Assembly: GCA_019931245.1 (NCBI GenBank)
Contig: JAINDL010000001.1
Coordinates: forward strand, 1 to 64,000
Source: Bryobacteraceae bacterium CoA2 C42
Lineage (GTDB): Bacteria > Acidobacteriota > Terriglobia > Bryobacterales > Bryobacteraceae
Reading direction: 5' to 3'
DNA: 64,000 nt
Shown here one piece after another: positions 17,747 through 52,153 of the stretch. The notes under the pieces were generated by a model. The model was given only the letters and a program-made list of their open reading frames with translations. It was not told where the DNA came from and made no database searches. Both the position numbers and the translations under genes were made by a program. Each line of letters starts with the position of its first letter. The first letter of the stretch is position 1.

Positions 17747-18901
17747 ATGAGTGAATACAACACCAGTCGCCGGGAGATTCTGGCGGGGGCGGCGGCGCTG
17801 TCGGCGGCGGCGCCCGCGGCGGCCAAGCCCATGATCCCGATCCCGCCGGGGATCAAGATCGGCGTCAGCGTCAACACCTACACGCCGGAGTACGGGCAAT
17901 ACCTGAAGCAACTCGGCGTGAAGTGGGTGAGCGTGGCGCCGCAGCAGGCCACGGCCAACGCCGAAGGCTTCACCAAACAGCGCGAAACCTGGGAGGCCGG
18001 CGGCTTCGGCGTCTACAACATCGGCAGCGGCGTAGGGCCGTCGGGCAGTCTGCACAACATGCCCGAGGTGACCCTGAACCTGCCGGGGCGCGATGTGAAG
18101 ATTGAGGACTACCTCAACTACATCCGCTACCTGGGCAAGGCGAAGATTCCCTACTCGACCTACGCGCACATGGGCAACGGCATCTGGTCGAGCGGCCGGG
18201 TGATCAATGCGCGCGGCTACAGCGCGCGGGACGGCAATTCGAAGAGCCCGGACTGGAAAGGTTTCTGGGGCGGGAAAACCTACACCGAACCGCTGTCGCA
18301 CGGCCGTGTCTACACCGAGCAGGAGATTTGGGAGAACTACGAGTACTTCATCAAGAAGGTAGTACCGGTGGCCGAGGAAGCCGGGGTCCGCATCGGGATT
18401 CACCCGGACGATCCGCCCCAGCGCATGCTGGCCGGCGTGCCGCGCTGCATCTTCTCGAACTTCGAGGGCTACAAGAAGGCGATTGAGATTGCCAACAGCC
18501 CCAACATCGGGGTCTGCTTCTGCGTCGGGTCGTGGCTTGAGGGCGGCAAGATGACCGGTGCGGACTGCGTGGATGTGATCAAGTACTTCGCGGCGAAGAA
18601 AAAGCTGTTTAAGGTCCACTTCCGCAATGTGACGGCGCCGCTGCCGCACTTCACGGAATCGTTGATCGACGATGGCTACTACGACATGACCCGGGTGATG
18701 CAGGCGCTGGTGGATGTGAAGTTCGACGGCATCGTGATCCCCGATCACGTACCGGCGGTGGGCGACATTCCCGGCACGCCGGACACGAGCCGGGGCGTGG
18801 GAGCGGATGGGAAGTTCCGTCCGAACGTGGGCCTCGCCTACCTGCTCGGCAGCATGAACGCGATGCTGAAGTCGGCGCAGCGGACGGCGGTGAAGGCGTA
18901 G
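17747..18901 (+). CDS. Mannonate dehydratase (UxuA-like), Tat/Sec-type leader
   Basis: MSEYNTSRREILAGAAALSAAAP leader; EEAGVRIGIHPDDPPQRMLAGVPRCIFSNFEGYKKAIEI, FKVHFRNVTAPLPHFTESLIDDGYYDM. Confidence 0.85.
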   Translation: MSEYNTSRREILAGAAALSAAAPAAAKPMIPIPPGIKIGVSVNTYTPEYGQYLKQLGVKWVSVAPQQATANAEGFTKQRETWEAGGFGVYNIGSGVGPSGSLHNMPEVTLNLPGRDVKIEDYLNYIRYLGKAKIPYSTYAHMGNGIWSSGRVINARGYSARDGNSKSPDWKGFWGGKTYTEPLSHGRVYTEQEIWENYEYFIKKVVPVAEEAGVRIGIHPDDPPQRMLAGVPRCIFSNFEGYKKAIEIANSPNIGVCFCVGSWLEGGKMTGADCVDVIKYFAAKKKLFKVHFRNVTAPLPHFTESLIDDGYYDMTRVMQALVDVKFDGIVIPDHVPAVGDIPGTPDTSRGVGADGKFRPNVGLAYLLGSMNAMLKSAQRTAVKA

Positions 18902-18983: not shown

Positions 18984-21950
18984 ATGTCCTTGCACATTCG
19001 CCGTTGTGTCCATCCGTTCCGCCGGGCGCTGCTGGCCGCTTTGGCCGCGGGCGCGGGATGGGCGGCGGAACCATCAACACTCGACGGCCGGTTCACCGCG
19101 GCCGTCCGCCCCTTTTTGAACAGGTATTGCGTCACGTGCCACAGCGCGCGGCAGCCGGCGGCGCAACTGGACTTGAGCGGGTTTGCCTCCCGCGCGGCGC
19201 TGGTCGAGGACGGAAGGCGGTGGCGCCAGATCCTCGAACGGATCGAAGCACGGGAGATGCCCCCCGCCGGAGCACGGCAACCCGCGGCCGGGGAGCGGGA
19301 GCAGGCGGTAAGTTGGTTCCACGCCGTGCGCGACGAAGAGCGCCGGCGCCACGCGGGCGACCCGGGCCTGGTGCTCGCGCGGCGGCTGAGCAACGCCGAG
19401 TACGACTACACGATCCGCGACCTGACGGGGGTCGATATCCGTCCGACGCGGGAGTTTCCGGTTGATCCGGCCAACACCGCCGGCTTTGACAACTCCGGCG
19501 AGACGCTGGCGATGTCGCCGACGCTCCTCAAAAAGTATCTGGGCGCGGCCCGGGAGGTGGCAAGCCATCTGTACCTGCAGGAAAAGGGTTTCAGCTTCGC
19601 GCCTCACCCGATGGTGGCCGAAACGGACCGGGATAAGTTCGCCGTTCACCAGATCATCGACTTCTATCACCGGCAGAACATCGATCTGGCCGATTACTTT
19701 GAGACGGCGTGGCGGTTCCGGCACCGGGCGGCGTTGGGGCAGCCGCGAGCAACGCTGGCGGGTCTGGCGCGGGCGCACCGGGTAAGCGCGAAGTATCTGA
19801 CGATGGTATGGGCCACGCTCGAAAGCGGCGCCGAGGTAGGCCCGCTGGGGCAGTTGCAGCAGATGTGGCGGGCGCTGCCGGCGCCGGGTCCCGGCCCGGG
19901 CGTCCGCGCCGAGTGCGAGCGGATGCGAGCCTACGTCGGCCGCGTGCGGGCCAAGGTGGAGCCGCGGTTTATCAACATCACCGCCGGGCCGATAGGAGCC
20001 GCCTGGCAGCCGCTGCTGATCTGGAAAAACAGGCAGTATGCCACGCACCGGCGGAGGTTCGACGCCCGGCAACTCCAGGTGGCCGGCGAACCATTGTTTG
20101 AACAGAAGGATGTCGTCGAGCCCGAGTGGGCGAACCCCTTCGGCCCGGGGAAGACGCTGCTCGTCGAAAACACGCCGGGGGATCCGGACCTGTTGGTTCC
20201 GGCCGGGCAGCGGGCGCGCTACGAAGCCGCCTGGGGCCGCTTCTGCAGCGTCTTTCCGGACCTGTTCTACCGGGACTCGCGCGGGCGGAACTACTTTGTC
20301 ACCGGCAAAGACGAGGGCCGCTACCTGAGCGCGGGCTTTCACAACGTGATGGGCTACTTCCGCGACGATCAGCCGCTCTATGAGCTGTTACTCGAACCGG
20401 GCGAGCAGGCCGAGTTGGACCGGATGTGGCGGGAGATGGATTTCGTCGCCTCGATCAACATACGGACCTACGTTGAGTTCGCCAAGCTGGGGACGCGCGG
20501 GACGCGGGACGATTTCAAAGACGGGGAGCCGGAGGTGCGCGAGATCGAAGTGGAGCAGATCATCGCCGAGCCGAAACTGCGGCAACTGGAGGCCGCCTAC
20601 CTCGAAATGGCCCGGAGCGGCAGCCCGGTGGCCAAGCAGGCCATCCGGGACTTCTTCCAGATCTACAACACGAGCATCCGCTGGGTGCAGGGTGCGCGGC
20701 GCGCCGCCGAGACCGCTCATCGCGACGCCCTGACGGCGTTTGCCGCCCGGGCCTACCGGCGTCCGCTCACAGCGGCCGAGCACGAGGACGTACTGTCGTT
20801 CTATGAGGACGCGCGGCAGCGCACGGGGCTCGACCACGAGTCGGCGGTGCGCGAGACCGTGGTGATGATTCTTACCTCGCCGCGGTTCTCCTACCGCGCC
20901 GAGCCGGTAGCCGGGGCCGGGGAGCAGGCGTTGGGAGCGTATGAACTGGCCAACCGGCTGAGCTACTTCCTGTGGTCGAGCATGCCGGACGACGCGCTGC
21001 GGCGGCGGGCCGCGGCGGGCGAACTGGGGCGGCCGGAGGTGCTGCTGGCCGAGGCCCGGCGCATGCTGCGCGACCCGCGGGCCCGGGCTTTGGCCGTGGA
21101 GTTCGGCGGCAACTGGCTCGATATCCGCGACTTCGCGCAGTTGTCGACCGTGGACCGGGAGCGTTTTCCGGCCTTCACCGACGAGGTCCGCGCCGCCCTG
21201 TTCGAAGAGCCAATCCGCTTCCTCGAGCATCTGTTCACCCACAACGGCTCCCTGCTCGATCTGCTCTACGGGCGCTACACCTTCGTGAATCCGGCCCTGG
21301 CGCGCTACTACGGCATGCCGCCGCCGGCGGGCGCGGACGGCTGGGGGCGCGTGGACGAGGCGGCCCGCTACGGGCGCGGCGGCTTGCTCCCCATGGCGGC
21401 CTTTCTGACCAAGAACGCTCCGGGGCTGCGGACGAGTCCGGTAAAGCGTGGCTACTGGCTGGCCCGGCGCATTCTGGGCGAGGAGATTCCGCCGCCCCCG
21501 GCGGTGGTGCCCGAACTGCCGGCCGACGAAGCCCGGATGGACCTGCCCCTGCGGCAGATGCTCGAGCGGCATCGCAACAATCCGGCCTGCGCTTCCTGTC
21601 ACGCCCGGTTCGACTCGTTTGGCTTAGCCCTCGAGGGCTTCGATCCGGTGGGCCGCGCGCGTTCGGCGGATCAGGCGGGGCGGCCGGTGGATGCCAGCGC
21701 CGTCTTTCCGGGCGGTGTCGCGGGGCGGGGGGTAGCGGGGCTGCGGCAGTACATCCGGACGCACCGGGAGCAGGACTTCCTGCGCGGGTTTACGGGCAAG
21801 CTGCTGGCGTATGCGTTGGGGCGGAGTTTAGCGTTTTCCGACGAGGTGCTGATCGAACAGATGGGCGCGGAGTTAGCGCGCCACGGCCACCGGTTTGAGA
21901 CCGTCGTGGCTTGTATTGTAACCAGCCGGCAGTTCCGGCATAAGAGGTAG
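18984..21950 (+). CDS. DUF1592/DUF1588/DUF1587/DUF1595/DUF1585 (planctomycete-type cytochrome) protein
   Basis: FLNRYCVTCHSARQPAAQLDLSG, LARRLSNAEYDYTIRDLTGVDI, AYRRPLTAAEHEDVLSFY, ANRLSYFLWSSMPDDALRRRA, NPACASCHARFDSFGLALEGFDPVGR; ATG 18984 preceded by AGGAGG. Confidence 0.93.
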   Translation: MSLHIRRCVHPFRRALLAALAAGAGWAAEPSTLDGRFTAAVRPFLNRYCVTCHSARQPAAQLDLSGFASRAALVEDGRRWRQILERIEAREMPPAGARQPAAGEREQAVSWFHAVRDEERRRHAGDPGLVLARRLSNAEYDYTIRDLTGVDIRPTREFPVDPANTAGFDNSGETLAMSPTLLKKYLGAAREVASHLYLQEKGFSFAPHPMVAETDRDKFAVHQIIDFYHRQNIDLADYFETAWRFRHRAALGQPRATLAGLARAHRVSAKYLTMVWATLESGAEVGPLGQLQQMWRALPAPGPGPGVRAECERMRAYVGRVRAKVEPRFINITAGPIGAAWQPLLIWKNRQYATHRRRFDARQLQVAGEPLFEQKDVVEPEWANPFGPGKTLLVENTPGDPDLLVPAGQRARYEAAWGRFCSVFPDLFYRDSRGRNYFVTGKDEGRYLSAGFHNVMGYFRDDQPLYELLLEPGEQAELDRMWREMDFVASINIRTYVEFAKLGTRGTRDDFKDGEPEVREIEVEQIIAEPKLRQLEAAYLEMARSGSPVAKQAIRDFFQIYNTSIRWVQGARRAAETAHRDALTAFAARAYRRPLTAAEHEDVLSFYEDARQRTGLDHESAVRETVVMILTSPRFSYRAEPVAGAGEQALGAYELANRLSYFLWSSMPDDALRRRAAAGELGRPEVLLAEARRMLRDPRARALAVEFGGNWLDIRDFAQLSTVDRERFPAFTDEVRAALFEEPIRFLEHLFTHNGSLLDLLYGRYTFVNPALARYYGMPPPAGADGWGRVDEAARYGRGGLLPMAAFLTKNAPGLRTSPVKRGYWLARRILGEEIPPPPAVVPELPADEARMDLPLRQMLERHRNNPACASCHARFDSFGLALEGFDPVGRARSADQAGRPVDASAVFPGGVAGRGVAGLRQYIRTHREQDFLRGFTGKLLAYALGRSLAFSDEVLIEQMGAELARHGHRFETVVACIVTSRQFRHKR

Positions 21951-42185: not shown

Positions 42186-44003
42186 ATGACGGACATGAGC
42201 CCCTTCCTGCTCCTCGCCACCGGCCTCGTTACCACCATCGCCGGCACCGGCGAACGCGGCTTCTCCGGCGAGGGCGGCCCCGCAACCGCCGCCGCCCTCG
42301 GCCTCGCCTTCCTCGTCAACGAGTGCGACCCCGCCCGCTTTGAAGAGCAAAGCCACCTCACCGTCGACCCCGCTGGCAACATCTATATCGCCGACTCCTC
42401 CAACCAGCGGATCCGCCGCCTCGCCCCCGACGGCATCCTCACGACGGTCGCCGGCAGCGGCGAACGCCCCGCCATCGACTCCCGCTGCAGCCCCCAGGGC
42501 GGCGCCGCGGCGGCGGGCGACAACGGACCCGCCGCCAGCGCCCGCCTCTACGGCCCCGCCCAAGCCATACCCACCCCCGACGGCGCCCTGCTCATCGTTG
42601 ACCAGAAGAACAATCGCATCCGCCTGGTCGCCTCCGACGGCCGCATCACCACCCTCGTCGGCAGCAATCTCCACACTTTCTTCTCCCCCAACATCCCCGC
42701 CACCTCCAGCCCCCTCGACTGGCCCTCCGCCGCCGCCTACGCCCCGGACGGCTCCCTTTACTTCGCCGAACTCCACTCCCATCGCATCGCCCGCCTCGCC
42801 CCCAACGGCCGCCTCCAACTCATCGCCGGCACCGGCTCATCCGGGGATGCCCCGGAGAACGCCACCGCCGCCACGGCGCGCCTCAGCAGCCCCACCCACC
42901 TCCTCTTCGACCCCGCTGGCAACCTGCTCATCGCCGACCAGGGCAACCACAAGATCCGCCGCATCACCCCGGCCGGCCTCATCACCACGCTGGCCGGCAC
43001 CGGCGCCGCCGGCTTCTCCGGCGACGAGGGCCCCGCCGCCGCCGCCCGCCTCAACCAGCCCAACGCCCTCGCCCTCGATGCGGCCGGCAACCTCTACATC
43101 GCCGACATGGGCAACCACCGCATCCGCCGCATCGCCCCCAACGGCACTATCACCACCGTCGCCGGAACGGGCCAGCCCGGACGCGGGGCGGACAATATCC
43201 CGGCCACCGAAAGCGCCCTGCGCTTTCCCAACTCGGTGGCGATCCACCCCTCCGGCGACCTCCTCATCGCCGACTGGCAGAACTTCCGGATCCGCCGCGT
43301 CACCTTCGCCCCCCGCCCCGCGCTCGCCGCCGGCGGCATCGTCAACGGCGCCAGCTTCGCCGCCGGTCCCGTCGCGCCCGGCGCCCTCGTCTCCCTGTTC
43401 GGCGCCAACTTCGCCCCCGGCCTCACACAGGCCTCCACCGTTCCCCTGCCCAGCCAACTCGCCGGGGTCCGCGTCACCGCCGCAGGCCGCCCCTGGCCCC
43501 TCGTCTTCGTCTCCCCCAACCAGATCAACGCCCAGGTCCCGTATAACGCCCCACCCGGCCCGCTGGCCGTCACCGTCTCCACCGCCGCCGGCGATTCCAC
43601 CGCCACCGTCCAGATCGTCCCCGCCGCCCCCGGCATCTTCCTCCGCGACGGCCGCCGCGCCATCGCCCAGAATCAGGACTTCCGCCTCAACGACCCCGCC
43701 GCCCCCGCCCCCCGCCGCAGCATCCTGACCGTCTACCTCACCGGCCAGGGCCCGCTCGACGGCCCCCTCGACGCCGGCGATCCCGCCCCCACCACCTCCC
43801 TGCTCCGCGCCCTCGCCCCCCCCGCCGCCACCATCGGTGGCCGACCGGCCAACGTCCTCTTCCTCGGCCTCACCCCCGGTTTCGTCGGCCTCGCCCAGGC
43901 CAACCTCGAAATCCCCGCCGACTCCCCCGCCGGCGCCGCCGTAGAGTTAACACTCTCTCTCAACGGCCAGCCCGCCAATGCCGCTACCATCAGTATTGAG
44001 TAG
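42186..44003 (+). CDS. NHL-repeat protein with Solibacter-type C-terminal domain (TIGR03437-like)
   Basis: Repeated ITTVAGTGxxG..G..A..A.L..P..v..d..GnlyiAD..NhrIRRi blades; IVNGASFAAGPVAPGALVSLFGANFAPG...VPLPSQLAGVRVTAAGRPWPLVFVSPNQINAQVPY. Confidence 0.9.
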   Translation: MTDMSPFLLLATGLVTTIAGTGERGFSGEGGPATAAALGLAFLVNECDPARFEEQSHLTVDPAGNIYIADSSNQRIRRLAPDGILTTVAGSGERPAIDSRCSPQGGAAAAGDNGPAASARLYGPAQAIPTPDGALLIVDQKNNRIRLVASDGRITTLVGSNLHTFFSPNIPATSSPLDWPSAAAYAPDGSLYFAELHSHRIARLAPNGRLQLIAGTGSSGDAPENATAATARLSSPTHLLFDPAGNLLIADQGNHKIRRITPAGLITTLAGTGAAGFSGDEGPAAAARLNQPNALALDAAGNLYIADMGNHRIRRIAPNGTITTVAGTGQPGRGADNIPATESALRFPNSVAIHPSGDLLIADWQNFRIRRVTFAPRPALAAGGIVNGASFAAGPVAPGALVSLFGANFAPGLTQASTVPLPSQLAGVRVTAAGRPWPLVFVSPNQINAQVPYNAPPGPLAVTVSTAAGDSTATVQIVPAAPGIFLRDGRRAIAQNQDFRLNDPAAPAPRRSILTVYLTGQGPLDGPLDAGDPAPTTSLLRALAPPAATIGGRPANVLFLGLTPGFVGLAQANLEIPADSPAGAAVELTLSLNGQPANAATISIE

Positions 44004-46936: not shown

Positions 46937-47005
46937 GCAAACCGGTTTCCGCTGCCGCCTAGCCGTTCTCTACCCCCCTCCGGGGCAAGGGACTATCCTG
47001 TGAGT

Positions 47006-50000
47006 ATGCGTAATTTGCATCTTACTTTGTTTCTTGCGTCCTCCCTACTTTCCGCCCAAACCTCAGACGCCCGCCTCGTTGGCCTCATCCGGGACCCCTC
47101 CGGCGCCGTGCTCCTGAATGTCGCCGTCACTGCCAGCAACATCGCCACCGGCTTCACCCGCTCGGCGCGGACCAACAATGCCGGATCGTTCGAACTTCCT
47201 GCGCTCCCGCCGGGCACTTACACGGTGACCGCCGAACTGAGCGGTTTTCGCAAGAGTACGATCAAGGAGCTTACTCTCCAGGTGAATCAGCAGGTGCGCG
47301 CGGACCTGACGCTTGAAGTCGGCAGCGTCGTCGAAGAGGTTACGGTCACCGCCGCCGCTCCGCTGCTGGTTACCGAGGCGGGATCGGTTGGTCAGGTGAT
47401 CGATAACAAGAAGATCGTCGAACTCCCCCTCAACGGACGCAACTTTACGCAGTTGGCCACGCTCACGCCCGGCGTCATCGCCTCGGCCGCGCTCGGCACC
47501 GGCCGGGCCTCCTCGCTGGTCGTTAACGGCACGCGCCCGACCAAAACCGAATTCCTGCTCGACGGCGTCTCCACCACCGGCCCCATCAATGGCGGCACGG
47601 GCGTCCTCCCCTCCATCGAAGCGCTCCAGGAGTTTAAGGTCCAGACCAGCGCCTTTTCGGCCGAGTTCGGCCGCAGCTCCGCCATTGTCAACGTGACGGT
47701 CAAGTCCGGCACGAATGACCTGCACGGCACCCTGTTTCATTTCCTCCGCCATAACGCCGTGGCGGCCCGGAACTTCTTCGCCCCCACCAACCCGCCGCTC
47801 AAGCGGAACCAGTTTGGCGCCACCGTCGAAGGCCCCCTCAAGAAGAACGACGCCTTCTTCCTGTTCAACTTTGAAGGTCAGCTCCAACGCGCCGGCCAGA
47901 CGCTGAACTCCATCGTCCCGAGCAACGCGCTCCGCGCGGGAGATTTCTCCGGCGGCGCCCCAATTTTCGACCCCGCCACCACCCGCGCCAACCCCGCCGG
48001 CGCCGGCTTCCTGCGCGACCCCTTCCCCGGCAACGCCATTCCAGCCGAACGGTTCACGGCGCCCTCTCGCTTCTTCCTGCCCTTCTTCCCGCAGCCCAAC
48101 GCCGGACGCGACGCCTTCGTCTACACCCCCAGCGCGAAGGAGGATTTCAACCAGGGCACCGCCCGCCTCGATAAGAAAATCGGCGCCGCCGGAAACCTCT
48201 TTGGCCGCTATACCATCTTCGACCGCACTAACTTCCTCCCCAACGTCCTGCCCGCCCTCGCCGGCACGAGCGTCGGGGCCCGGTTCCAGAACGCCGCGCT
48301 TAGCTACACCCACGTTCTGAGCCCCAAGTTCCTGCTGGAAACCCGCCTCGGTTATAACCGGGAACTTACCCTGCAGATTCCGCCCGGATTCGGCACCAAC
48401 TACACCACGCAATCCGGCATCCGCGGCTTCGAACTTACCACCCTCGACATGCCCCGCTTCCCCTCGATCGCCGTCACCGGCTTTGCCAGCCTCGGCGGGG
48501 GCCTGCTGTTCAATCGCAACAACATATATCAGATTCAGCAGAGCGGCAGCCTGTTTCTCGGACAGCACTCCTTACGCTTCGGCGTCGACTTCCGCGAGCA
48601 ACGCAACGAGAACTATAACTCGGCCAACAACTCCGGGAACTTCAATTTCCGCGGTACTTACACCAACAACCCCCAACAGCCCGGCGGCACGGGGAACCCC
48701 TGGGCGGACTACCTCGTCGGCCTTCCCGCCGATGCCAACCGGTCCTTTCCCCGCAATCTGTTCGGCAACCGCTTCTATAACTGGCACTACTATGTCCAGG
48801 ACGATTGGAAGGTCAACTCGCGGCTGACCCTGAACCTCGGCCTACGTTACGAGTACAACCCGTGGCCCACCGGCCTGCGAAACCAGATGACGCTCTTTGA
48901 CCGCGCCACCGGGCAGATCATCCTCTCCTCGCCGGTCGACCTCGACGCGCAGCAGGTCGCCCGGCCGGCCTTTGCGGTATTCCAGGACATCCTGACCACC
49001 ACCGAAGCCCGCGGTCTCCCGCGCCAGATCCAGTACAACGACCGGAATAACTTCGCGCCACGCGTCGGCCTGGCTTGGCGCCCCTTTGACAACAAGACCG
49101 TCATCCGCGCCGGCGCCGGGTTCTTTTATAACCTCGTCAACGGAAACGGCCGCACGGGCGGCATTATCAACCCGCCCTTCCTCGTCGACGAACAGGTGTT
49201 CAATACCACCCCGGTTCCCACCCTCACCTTCGCCAACTTCTTTGTCGCGCCGCCTCCCTCGGCCGCGGTTCCGCCCACCATCGACAGCCGGTCGCTCAAC
49301 CAGCGCACGCCATACGACATCACCTGGAATCTCATCATCCAGCGCGAACTGCTCAAGAATCTCGCTCTCGAAGTCGGCTACCTGGGCAAGTCGAGCTCCC
49401 GCGTCGAGCGCGATATCCAGTTCAATCAACCGCTCCCTGGCCCGGGTGCCATCCAGCCCCGCCGGCCGTTTCCCCGCTTCGGCAACGGAACGCTTCGCGA
49501 CGATGGATCAAAAGCCAGCTACCACGCGCTGCAGACCAAACTCGAAAAGCGCTACTCGAACGGCATGAGTTTCCTCGTCTCCTACACCTGGTCCAAGTCC
49601 ATCGACGAGGTCTCCACCGACGTGGGTCCCATCGCCGCCAATCCCCGCGACTACCGGGCCGAACGGGCCGTCTCCGACTATGACATTCCTCACCTGTTCG
49701 TCGCCAGCTACCTCTATGACCTGCCGCTGTTCCGCTCCCACAAGCGCCTCGGCGGCTGGCAGGTCGGCGGCATCTCCACGCTTCGCAGCGGCCTGTCCTT
49801 TACCCCCCGCATCAACCTCGACGTGGCCAACATCGGCACCACGAACCAGCGGCCCAACCGGCTCGGTTCGGGCAAGCCGTCCAACCAATCGCTCGACTCC
49901 TGGTTTGACCGCGGGGCCTTCGTCGTCCCCGCAGCCTTCACTTTTGGCAACTCCGGCCGCAATATCCTGCGCGGCGATGGCGTCATCAACCTCGATCTGA

Positions 50001-50185
50001 TCCTGATCAAGAACACCGCTCTCAGCGAGCGGGTGAACTTTCAGTTCCGGGTCGAAGCCTTCAACTCCGCCAACCACGCCAATTTCGGCCTACCCAACAA
50101 CATTGTCAACGTCCCCGCCGGTGGCCGTGTGCTTTCGGCCGCCGACGCCCGGATCATCCAGTTCGGCGCCAAATTGATGTTCTGA
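47006..50185 (+). CDS. TonB-dependent receptor with carboxypeptidase-regulatory-like domain (Oar-like)
   Basis: LVGLIRDPSGAVLLNVAVTASNIATGFTRSARTNNAGSFELPALPPGTYTVTAELSGF; terminal FGAKLMF. Confidence 0.93.
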   Translation: MRNLHLTLFLASSLLSAQTSDARLVGLIRDPSGAVLLNVAVTASNIATGFTRSARTNNAGSFELPALPPGTYTVTAELSGFRKSTIKELTLQVNQQVRADLTLEVGSVVEEVTVTAAAPLLVTEAGSVGQVIDNKKIVELPLNGRNFTQLATLTPGVIASAALGTGRASSLVVNGTRPTKTEFLLDGVSTTGPINGGTGVLPSIEALQEFKVQTSAFSAEFGRSSAIVNVTVKSGTNDLHGTLFHFLRHNAVAARNFFAPTNPPLKRNQFGATVEGPLKKNDAFFLFNFEGQLQRAGQTLNSIVPSNALRAGDFSGGAPIFDPATTRANPAGAGFLRDPFPGNAIPAERFTAPSRFFLPFFPQPNAGRDAFVYTPSAKEDFNQGTARLDKKIGAAGNLFGRYTIFDRTNFLPNVLPALAGTSVGARFQNAALSYTHVLSPKFLLETRLGYNRELTLQIPPGFGTNYTTQSGIRGFELTTLDMPRFPSIAVTGFASLGGGLLFNRNNIYQIQQSGSLFLGQHSLRFGVDFREQRNENYNSANNSGNFNFRGTYTNNPQQPGGTGNPWADYLVGLPADANRSFPRNLFGNRFYNWHYYVQDDWKVNSRLTLNLGLRYEYNPWPTGLRNQMTLFDRATGQIILSSPVDLDAQQVARPAFAVFQDILTTTEARGLPRQIQYNDRNNFAPRVGLAWRPFDNKTVIRAGAGFFYNLVNGNGRTGGIINPPFLVDEQVFNTTPVPTLTFANFFVAPPPSAAVPPTIDSRSLNQRTPYDITWNLIIQRELLKNLALEVGYLGKSSSRVERDIQFNQPLPGPGAIQPRRPFPRFGNGTLRDDGSKASYHALQTKLEKRYSNGMSFLVSYTWSKSIDEVSTDVGPIAANPRDYRAERAVSDYDIPHLFVASYLYDLPLFRSHKRLGGWQVGGISTLRSGLSFTPRINLDVANIGTTNQRPNRLGSGKPSNQSLDSWFDRGAFVVPAAFTFGNSGRNILRGDGVINLDLILIKNTALSERVNFQFRVEAFNSANHANFGLPNNIVNVPAGGRVLSAADARIIQFGAKLMF

Positions 50186-50232
50186 CGGGCGCCGGGGATC
50201 GGGATCGCCGGCAATCAGGCACAATCGAAGCC

Positions 50233-51135
50233 ATGATCCTCGTCACCGGTGGCGCCGGCTTTATCGGCTCCCACGTCGTCGCGGCCCTGCGCGCCCAGGG
50301 CCGTCCCGTTCCCATCGCCGACCTGCAAGCCCGCTAGCCCTTTGACCTCCGCACCGGCGACCTGCCCGGCCTGCTCCGCCAGGTGGCGCCTACCGCCATC
50401 GTCCACCTGGCCGGCCACGCCGTGGTCGCCGACTCCATTGCCGACCCGCGCCGCGATCTGGAAACCAACCTCGTGCCTACCATCGCTCTTCTCGAAGCGA
50501 TCCGCGCCGTCTGCCCCCAGACGCCGCTCTTGTTCGCCTCCACGGGCGCCGTTTACGGCAGCCACGCCACGCAGCCGTTCACCGAACTCGACCCGGTCTT
50601 CCCTGTCCCGCCCTACGCCGTCTCGAAACTGGCGAGCGAACGCTACTGCGCCTCCTACGCCGCCGTGTACGGTCTCCGCACGGCCTCGCTACGCCTGTTC
50701 TCCGTCTTTGGCCCCGGCCAGCGGAAACAGGTGGTCTACGATCTGATCCGGAAGCTGCTGGCCGACCCGGACCGCCTCGAAATGTTCGGCGACGGTTCGC
50801 AGGTTCGCGACTTCAACCCGGTCGCTAATGTCGCCCCGGCCTTTCTCGTCGCGCTCGACCGCGCGGCGTTCACCGGCGAGGTCTACAACGTCGGCGGGCC
50901 CGAGGCGCTTTCGATCCGGGCCCTGGTCACCCGCCTGGCCGCACTCCTCGGGATCGACCCGGTGCTGGCCTTCACCGGCACGCACCGGATCGGCGACGCC
51001 GAATGCTGGCTGGCCGATTCCTCCAAACTCCAGTCCCTGGGCTACCACCCCGCGATGTCGGTAGAGGATGGCCTGCGGGAAACCATCGGCTGGGTGCGCA
51101 GCGAAGAAGAACCGACCGGCAGCCCTAAAGCTTAA
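50233..51135 (+). pseudogene. NAD-dependent epimerase/dehydratase interrupted by in-frame TAG (50335-50337)
   Basis: MILVTGGAGFIGSHVVAALRAQGRPVPIADLQAR*PFDLRTGDLPGLLRQVAPTAIVHLAGHAVVADSIADPRRDLETNLVPTIALLEAIR...STGAVYG...YAVSK; otherwise intact in one frame. Confidence 0.85.
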
Positions 51136-51160
51136 CCCACCCTCGGCCGGTTGACTCCTT

Positions 51161-52153
51161 ATGAGGGAGCGCCGCCCGTTATCGGAGGAGCTACTGGATA
51201 TCTTCCGGGGTATTCCTCGTGTCTTCCGGCGCGGATACGTTCCCCTGGTAGCGGTACTCACCCTGATCCACTACCCGAACGACATCGATTCCCCGCTGTA
51301 TCCCCCGCAGGCGGCCGCCGTCACCCATTCCGCTGCGGTAACCGTTCCGGAAACCAGCACGGCCAACTTCTCCGACGCCACCTACCTCGGTCCCGACAGC
51401 AACGGCGTCGTGCCCCGGGGTAAAGGACTCGACTACGAATCCACCGCCGCCGAGGCCGCCAAGAAGTATCAGATTGCGCCGCGCGTCGTGGATTTCGTCA
51501 ACGCCCACCAGTTGAAGGATTAGAAGGTTCTCGAAGTGGGTTCCGGACGCGGCTACCTGCAGGATCTTGTCGAGGACGACACGGGCCTCGACCTATCGCC
51601 GTCGGTCGCCCGCCGCTATTACAAAAAGTTCGTGGCCGGCTCCGCCACAGCTCTTCCCTTCCCGGACAATACGTTCGACGCCATCTGGACGGTTTGGGGG
51701 CTCGAACATATCCCCGAGCCGGAAAAGACGATGCGCGAGATGCGGCGGGTGCTCAAGCCCGGAGGCAAGCTGTTTCTGATGGCCGCCTGGAACTGTAAGC
51801 CATGGCTGGCCGATGGTTTCACCGTCCGTCCGTACAGCGACTTCAACTGGAAGGGCAAGCTCGTCAAGGCCAGCCTGCTGTTGCGCGATACGGCCTACCT
51901 GCAGACCACCTATCTGCGACCCACGCGCTTTCTCCGCCACCTGCACTACCGGTCGACCCCTCTCCATTGCAACAAGCTGAAGCCCAACTATGCGGTCTAC
52001 TGGCAGCCGGACAGCGATGCCGCTATTGACATTGATGGATATGAGGCCTACCTCTGGCACAGAGCCCAAGGCGATCAGTGCCTGAACTGCGGGGGAGCGT
52101 GGGAGGAGATGACCAACGCCACGGGCGCGTTAATCCTGCAGGTCAACCAGTAG
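51161..52153 (+). pseudogene. SAM-dependent methyltransferase interrupted by in-frame TAG (51521-51523)
   Basis: ...PRVVDFVNAHQLKD*KVLEVGSGRGYLQDLVEDDTGLDLS...GSATALPFPDNTFDAIWTVWGLEHIPEPEKTMREMRRVLKPGGKLFLMA in one frame. Confidence 0.85.

Follow-up and report, generated by a model that had tools for sequence, protein, structure and literature searches.

Single in-frame TAG codons in two adjacent genes of an acidobacterial genome are best explained by recent, parallel gene decay

Why should an epimerase gene and the methyltransferase gene next to it be interrupted by exactly one in-frame TAG codon apiece, while the coding sequence on either side stays intact? The question arises from a stretch of DNA of 64,000 nucleotides (hereafter the window), corresponding to contig 40 of a 6.07-Mb draft MAG (237 contigs, completeness 97.7%) of an uncultured acidobacterium. 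Both TAG codons, first described by a sequence-only reading, were verified with respect to coordinates, frame and Pfam context; the coding-frame signal is positive 5' and 3' of each, and one TAG is the sole frame break per gene, as had been claimed. That reading had also called two neighbouring TAGs unusual, and a whole-genome family search bears this out: in-frame stops occur in one of 45 matches to PF01370 (the window epimerase itself), in one of 48 matches to PF08241 (a weak match elsewhere, interrupted by TAA) and in none of 63 matches to the ABC-transporter family PF00005. As in-frame stops are this rare in large families of the genome, two adjacent single stops do not reflect a background error rate, and the pair needs explaining. 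The weak PF08241 match (C166:104451-104669 of the window genome, G000) is possibly another pseudogene. Our preferred explanation, to which we assign a probability of roughly 85%, is a dispensable gene pair in recent, parallel decay, with no rewriting of the genetic code.

Table 1. Positions of the interrupted genes and associated features within the window.
Feature	Position	Strand	Evidence or remark
Epimerase/dehydratase gene, putative pseudogene (SDR-type, PF01370)	50233..51135	+	Pfam match; intact orthologues in five genomes
In-frame TAG, epimerase codon 35	50335..50337	+	Glu or Asp in orthologues
Class-I SAM methyltransferase gene (PF08241), interrupted	51161..52153	+	Pfam E 2e-19; orthologues in G010 and G016
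Low-divergence tract around TAG, codons 90-135	51428..51567	+	Versus G010: 0 synonymous, 2 nonsynonymous differences
In-frame TAG, methyltransferase codon 121	51521..51523	+	Common to G010; Lys codon in G016
GTG, potential restart codon after TAG	51536..51538	+	AGAAGG at 51522-51527; predicted

One explanation is amber suppression, genome-wide or locus-specific, inserting a residue at both positions, as both stops are TAG and each gene is otherwise intact. The decoding machinery of the genome argues against it, however. The suppressor tRNA with CTA anticodon that the sequence-only reading had proposed to look for was not found among the tRNAs typed at 46 places, release factor 1 is present (prfA, 526.7 bits), and the best match to PylS reaches 20.4 bits, below the cut-off of 178. 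The typed set includes a tRNA-Sec (TCA) gene at L095 2183-2277, and in-frame TGA may be read as selenocysteine in some genes; Arg-TCT and Val-GAC tRNAs are missing from the set of the window genome and probably lie in unassembled parts. Stop-codon usage, counted in a 1.07-Mb sample of the genome, is congruent with an ordinary code: the 569 coding ORFs end in TAG (201), TGA (192) or TAA (176), TAG thus terminating about 35% of them, and the three places in the window where TAG had been cited as the normal terminator (18899-18901, 21948-21950, 44001-44003) were all checked and do read TAG. Further in-frame TAGs, likewise suggested as a search target, are not over-represented within this sample, the candidate in-frame stops (TAG 39, TAA 33, TGA 28) being proportional to terminal use; we infer that most of these are ordinary gene ends. 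None of the ten best other TAG candidates showed a domain spanning the stop. On the tRNA set, release factor 1, the PylS score, stop usage and the other TAG candidates together, we reject genome-wide recoding and the use of pyrrolysine.

Comparison with genomes of the same genus points to recent, parallel decay of the locus itself. The epimerase is an NAD-dependent enzyme of 300 residues, and the full Pfam Epimerase profile (PF01370) aligns across the TAG (E 5e-48). Intact orthologues with 80-84% identity are encoded in G001, G006, G009, G012 and G017, all of the same genus; conclusions from this alignment were drawn from correctly oriented rows. In two sister genomes the gene has fared differently. 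In G010 it is absent, window positions 50187-51119 being replaced by about 58 bp (alignment jump 50186 to 51120). The deletion scar (L115 7307) holds a perfect GC-rich palindrome with the core GCGGTGCGGCGCGCCGCACCGC at the former epimerase site; this exact core is absent from the window and from the loci of the other genomes. In G016, the 5' part of the gene is replaced by about 300 bp and a further internal deletion of about 90 bp is present. The replacing segment recurs in G016 and in the window genome, and a related copy of it (79% identical) encodes a complete IS1634 transposase; the G016 epimerase is truncated beside an IS1634-type mobile element. Along its own branch the window epimerase has gathered 14 unique nonsynonymous versus 34 synonymous changes, compared with 1-3 versus 11-21 in its intact relatives, counts which hint at relaxed selection and are explained in part by the longer branch.

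The gene neighbourhood is variable as well. In G001 (L118), G009 (L117) and G017 (L116) the epimerase is followed by a glycosyltransferase of family-2 type, about 440 aa long, which is missing from the window genome, G010, G016, G006 and G012. We asked whether losing this partner could have set off the decay of the epimerase, but the idea is not borne out, G006 and G012 having an intact epimerase in its absence. In other genomes of the genus the epimerase either precedes the glycosyltransferase or is on its own, in both cases without the methyltransferase; the two are therefore not a conserved functional pair, contrary to the idea that the two genes are probably co-functional. Upstream, an Oar/TonB-type outer-membrane protein gene (window 47000-50185) is almost unchanged at the protein level (dN/dS 0.023 versus G010), quite unlike the pair of broken genes adjoining it.

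For the methyltransferase (330 residues), the Methyltransf_11 match begins just 3' of the TAG. Among 237 genomes of the family, close orthologues (about 86% identity) were found in G010 and G016 only, the remaining homologues reaching at most about 52% identity. The homologues are open across the TAG site, and the distant ones carry mostly Lys, otherwise Arg, Ala or Gly in this column. G010, a separate MAG, shows TAG at the identical codon, while G016 has its own TAA at codon 251, so that all three known close copies contain one stop each, at two different sites. Codons 241-258 of the G016 copy (L010), with the TAA inside, differ densely from both relatives at synonymous and nonsynonymous positions and perhaps represent an imported allele.

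These findings bear on two of the alternatives. Sequencing or assembly error would find room in a draft MAG of 237 contigs, and for the epimerase TAG, observed in one MAG only, it keeps a small probability. For the methyltransferase it is unlikely because the independently assembled G010 has the same TAG, and the rarity of in-frame stops in large families also speaks against it; as an account of the locus we rate error as very unlikely. In the orthologues, the epimerase site is occupied by Glu or Asp, the methyltransferase site by Lys in G016 and by TAG in G010. These residues weigh against suppression. With Glu/Asp in one column and mostly Lys in the other, no single suppressor residue suits both, in disagreement with the proposal that Gln or Lys would fit either context, and the sister species carry deletions and a TAA. 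Programmed amber suppression can consequently be regarded as largely refuted, and we consider it extremely improbable.

Decay of both genes has to be reconciled with the selection acting on the methyltransferase. Pairwise dN/dS over the whole gene amounts to 0.2-0.27; between the two TAG-bearing alleles (window and G010) it is 0.27, or 0.26 downstream of the TAG, which as a counterpoint to decay suggests purifying selection. Neither allele contains a stop beyond the TAG, whereas simulated neutral evolution over the observed distance predicts about 6 further stops for a gene dead since the split (probability of zero further stops, P 0.003 to 0.0007). Death of the methyltransferase at the species split is contradicted by this result. 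Low dN/dS combined with the lack of further stops rather indicates that the gene was constrained for most of the divergence between window and G010, and any account by decay therefore needs a recent TAG plus its transfer.

Such constraint might also mean that the methyltransferase still works in spite of its TAG, either through low-level readthrough or because translation restarts at the GTG behind AGAAGG. That two species have the TAG in common, the dN/dS of 0.26 after it and the lack of further lesions fit this idea, which we nevertheless judge unlikely. No amber-decoding tRNA was found at the 46 tRNA places and release factor 1 is present; G016 has Lys at the site and a TAA elsewhere; a product started at the GTG is predicted to lack the first strand of SAM motif I (VLE of VLEVGSGRG); and the Shine-Dalgarno-like AGAAGG occurs in G016 too, where it merely codes for part of KKVLEV. 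Also unlikely is a translational switch in which readthrough or stop-restart would yield a small N-terminal product together with the full or core enzyme. A search of the literature on readthrough returned nothing useful. A functional methyltransferase is the only unusual reading remaining, and an unlikely one.

Transfer, as demanded by recent decay, is compatible with the pattern of divergence around the TAG. Window and G010 share a run of 46 codons without synonymous difference, for which we obtained P 0.013 at codon 121 and P 0.065 anywhere. This recombination test is only suggestive; the methyltransferase TAG is probably a recent allele that became common to two species via recombination.

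Taken as recent parallel decay, the locus would have the following history. One nonsense mutation per gene would truncate each product in the window species, the epimerase ending after 34 residues and the methyltransferase ahead of its SAM-binding motif. Sister species would have lost the same genes independently, by deletion in G010 and by a mobile element, an internal deletion and a different nonsense codon (TAA) in G016, while the methyltransferase TAG allele would be recent and was probably moved between two species when a short tract underwent homologous recombination. It is the loss or damage of the same two genes by other means in relatives that points to ordinary recent gene decay. Of the co-pseudogenisation considered at the outset, the decay is thus supported, in the form of separate lesions in several species and not as one joint event. 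In general terms, adjacent genes with a single amber codon each need not imply recoding, as sister species may reveal parallel loss by different lesions. The shared TAG in its low-divergence tract further provides a modest example, amenable to testing, of how a dead allele may have spread between species by recombination.

What the locus shares with natural amber recoding, by pyrrolysine or a suppressor tRNA, is an in-frame TAG flanked by intact coding sequence; it differs in that neither decoding tRNA nor synthetase was found, release factor 1 is present and TAG is unenriched. Closer counterparts are known from gene decay. In Chlamydia trachomatis, aaxB and aaxC underwent parallel recent inactivation, and dN/dS shows no relaxation because the inactivation is recent (PMC2720952). 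There, expression experiments tested whether activity had been lost (PMC2720952), whereas our case is argued from sequence, but the arrangement is alike: independent nonsense mutations and other lesions hit the same genes in sister lineages. In Salmonella, young pseudogenes are removed quickly by deletion (PMC2916853). Those genomes belong to strains of a pathogen and ours are acidobacterial MAGs of separate species; in both, what appear to be young pseudogenes with a single lesion stand beside the complete deletion of the same gene, here in a sister species.
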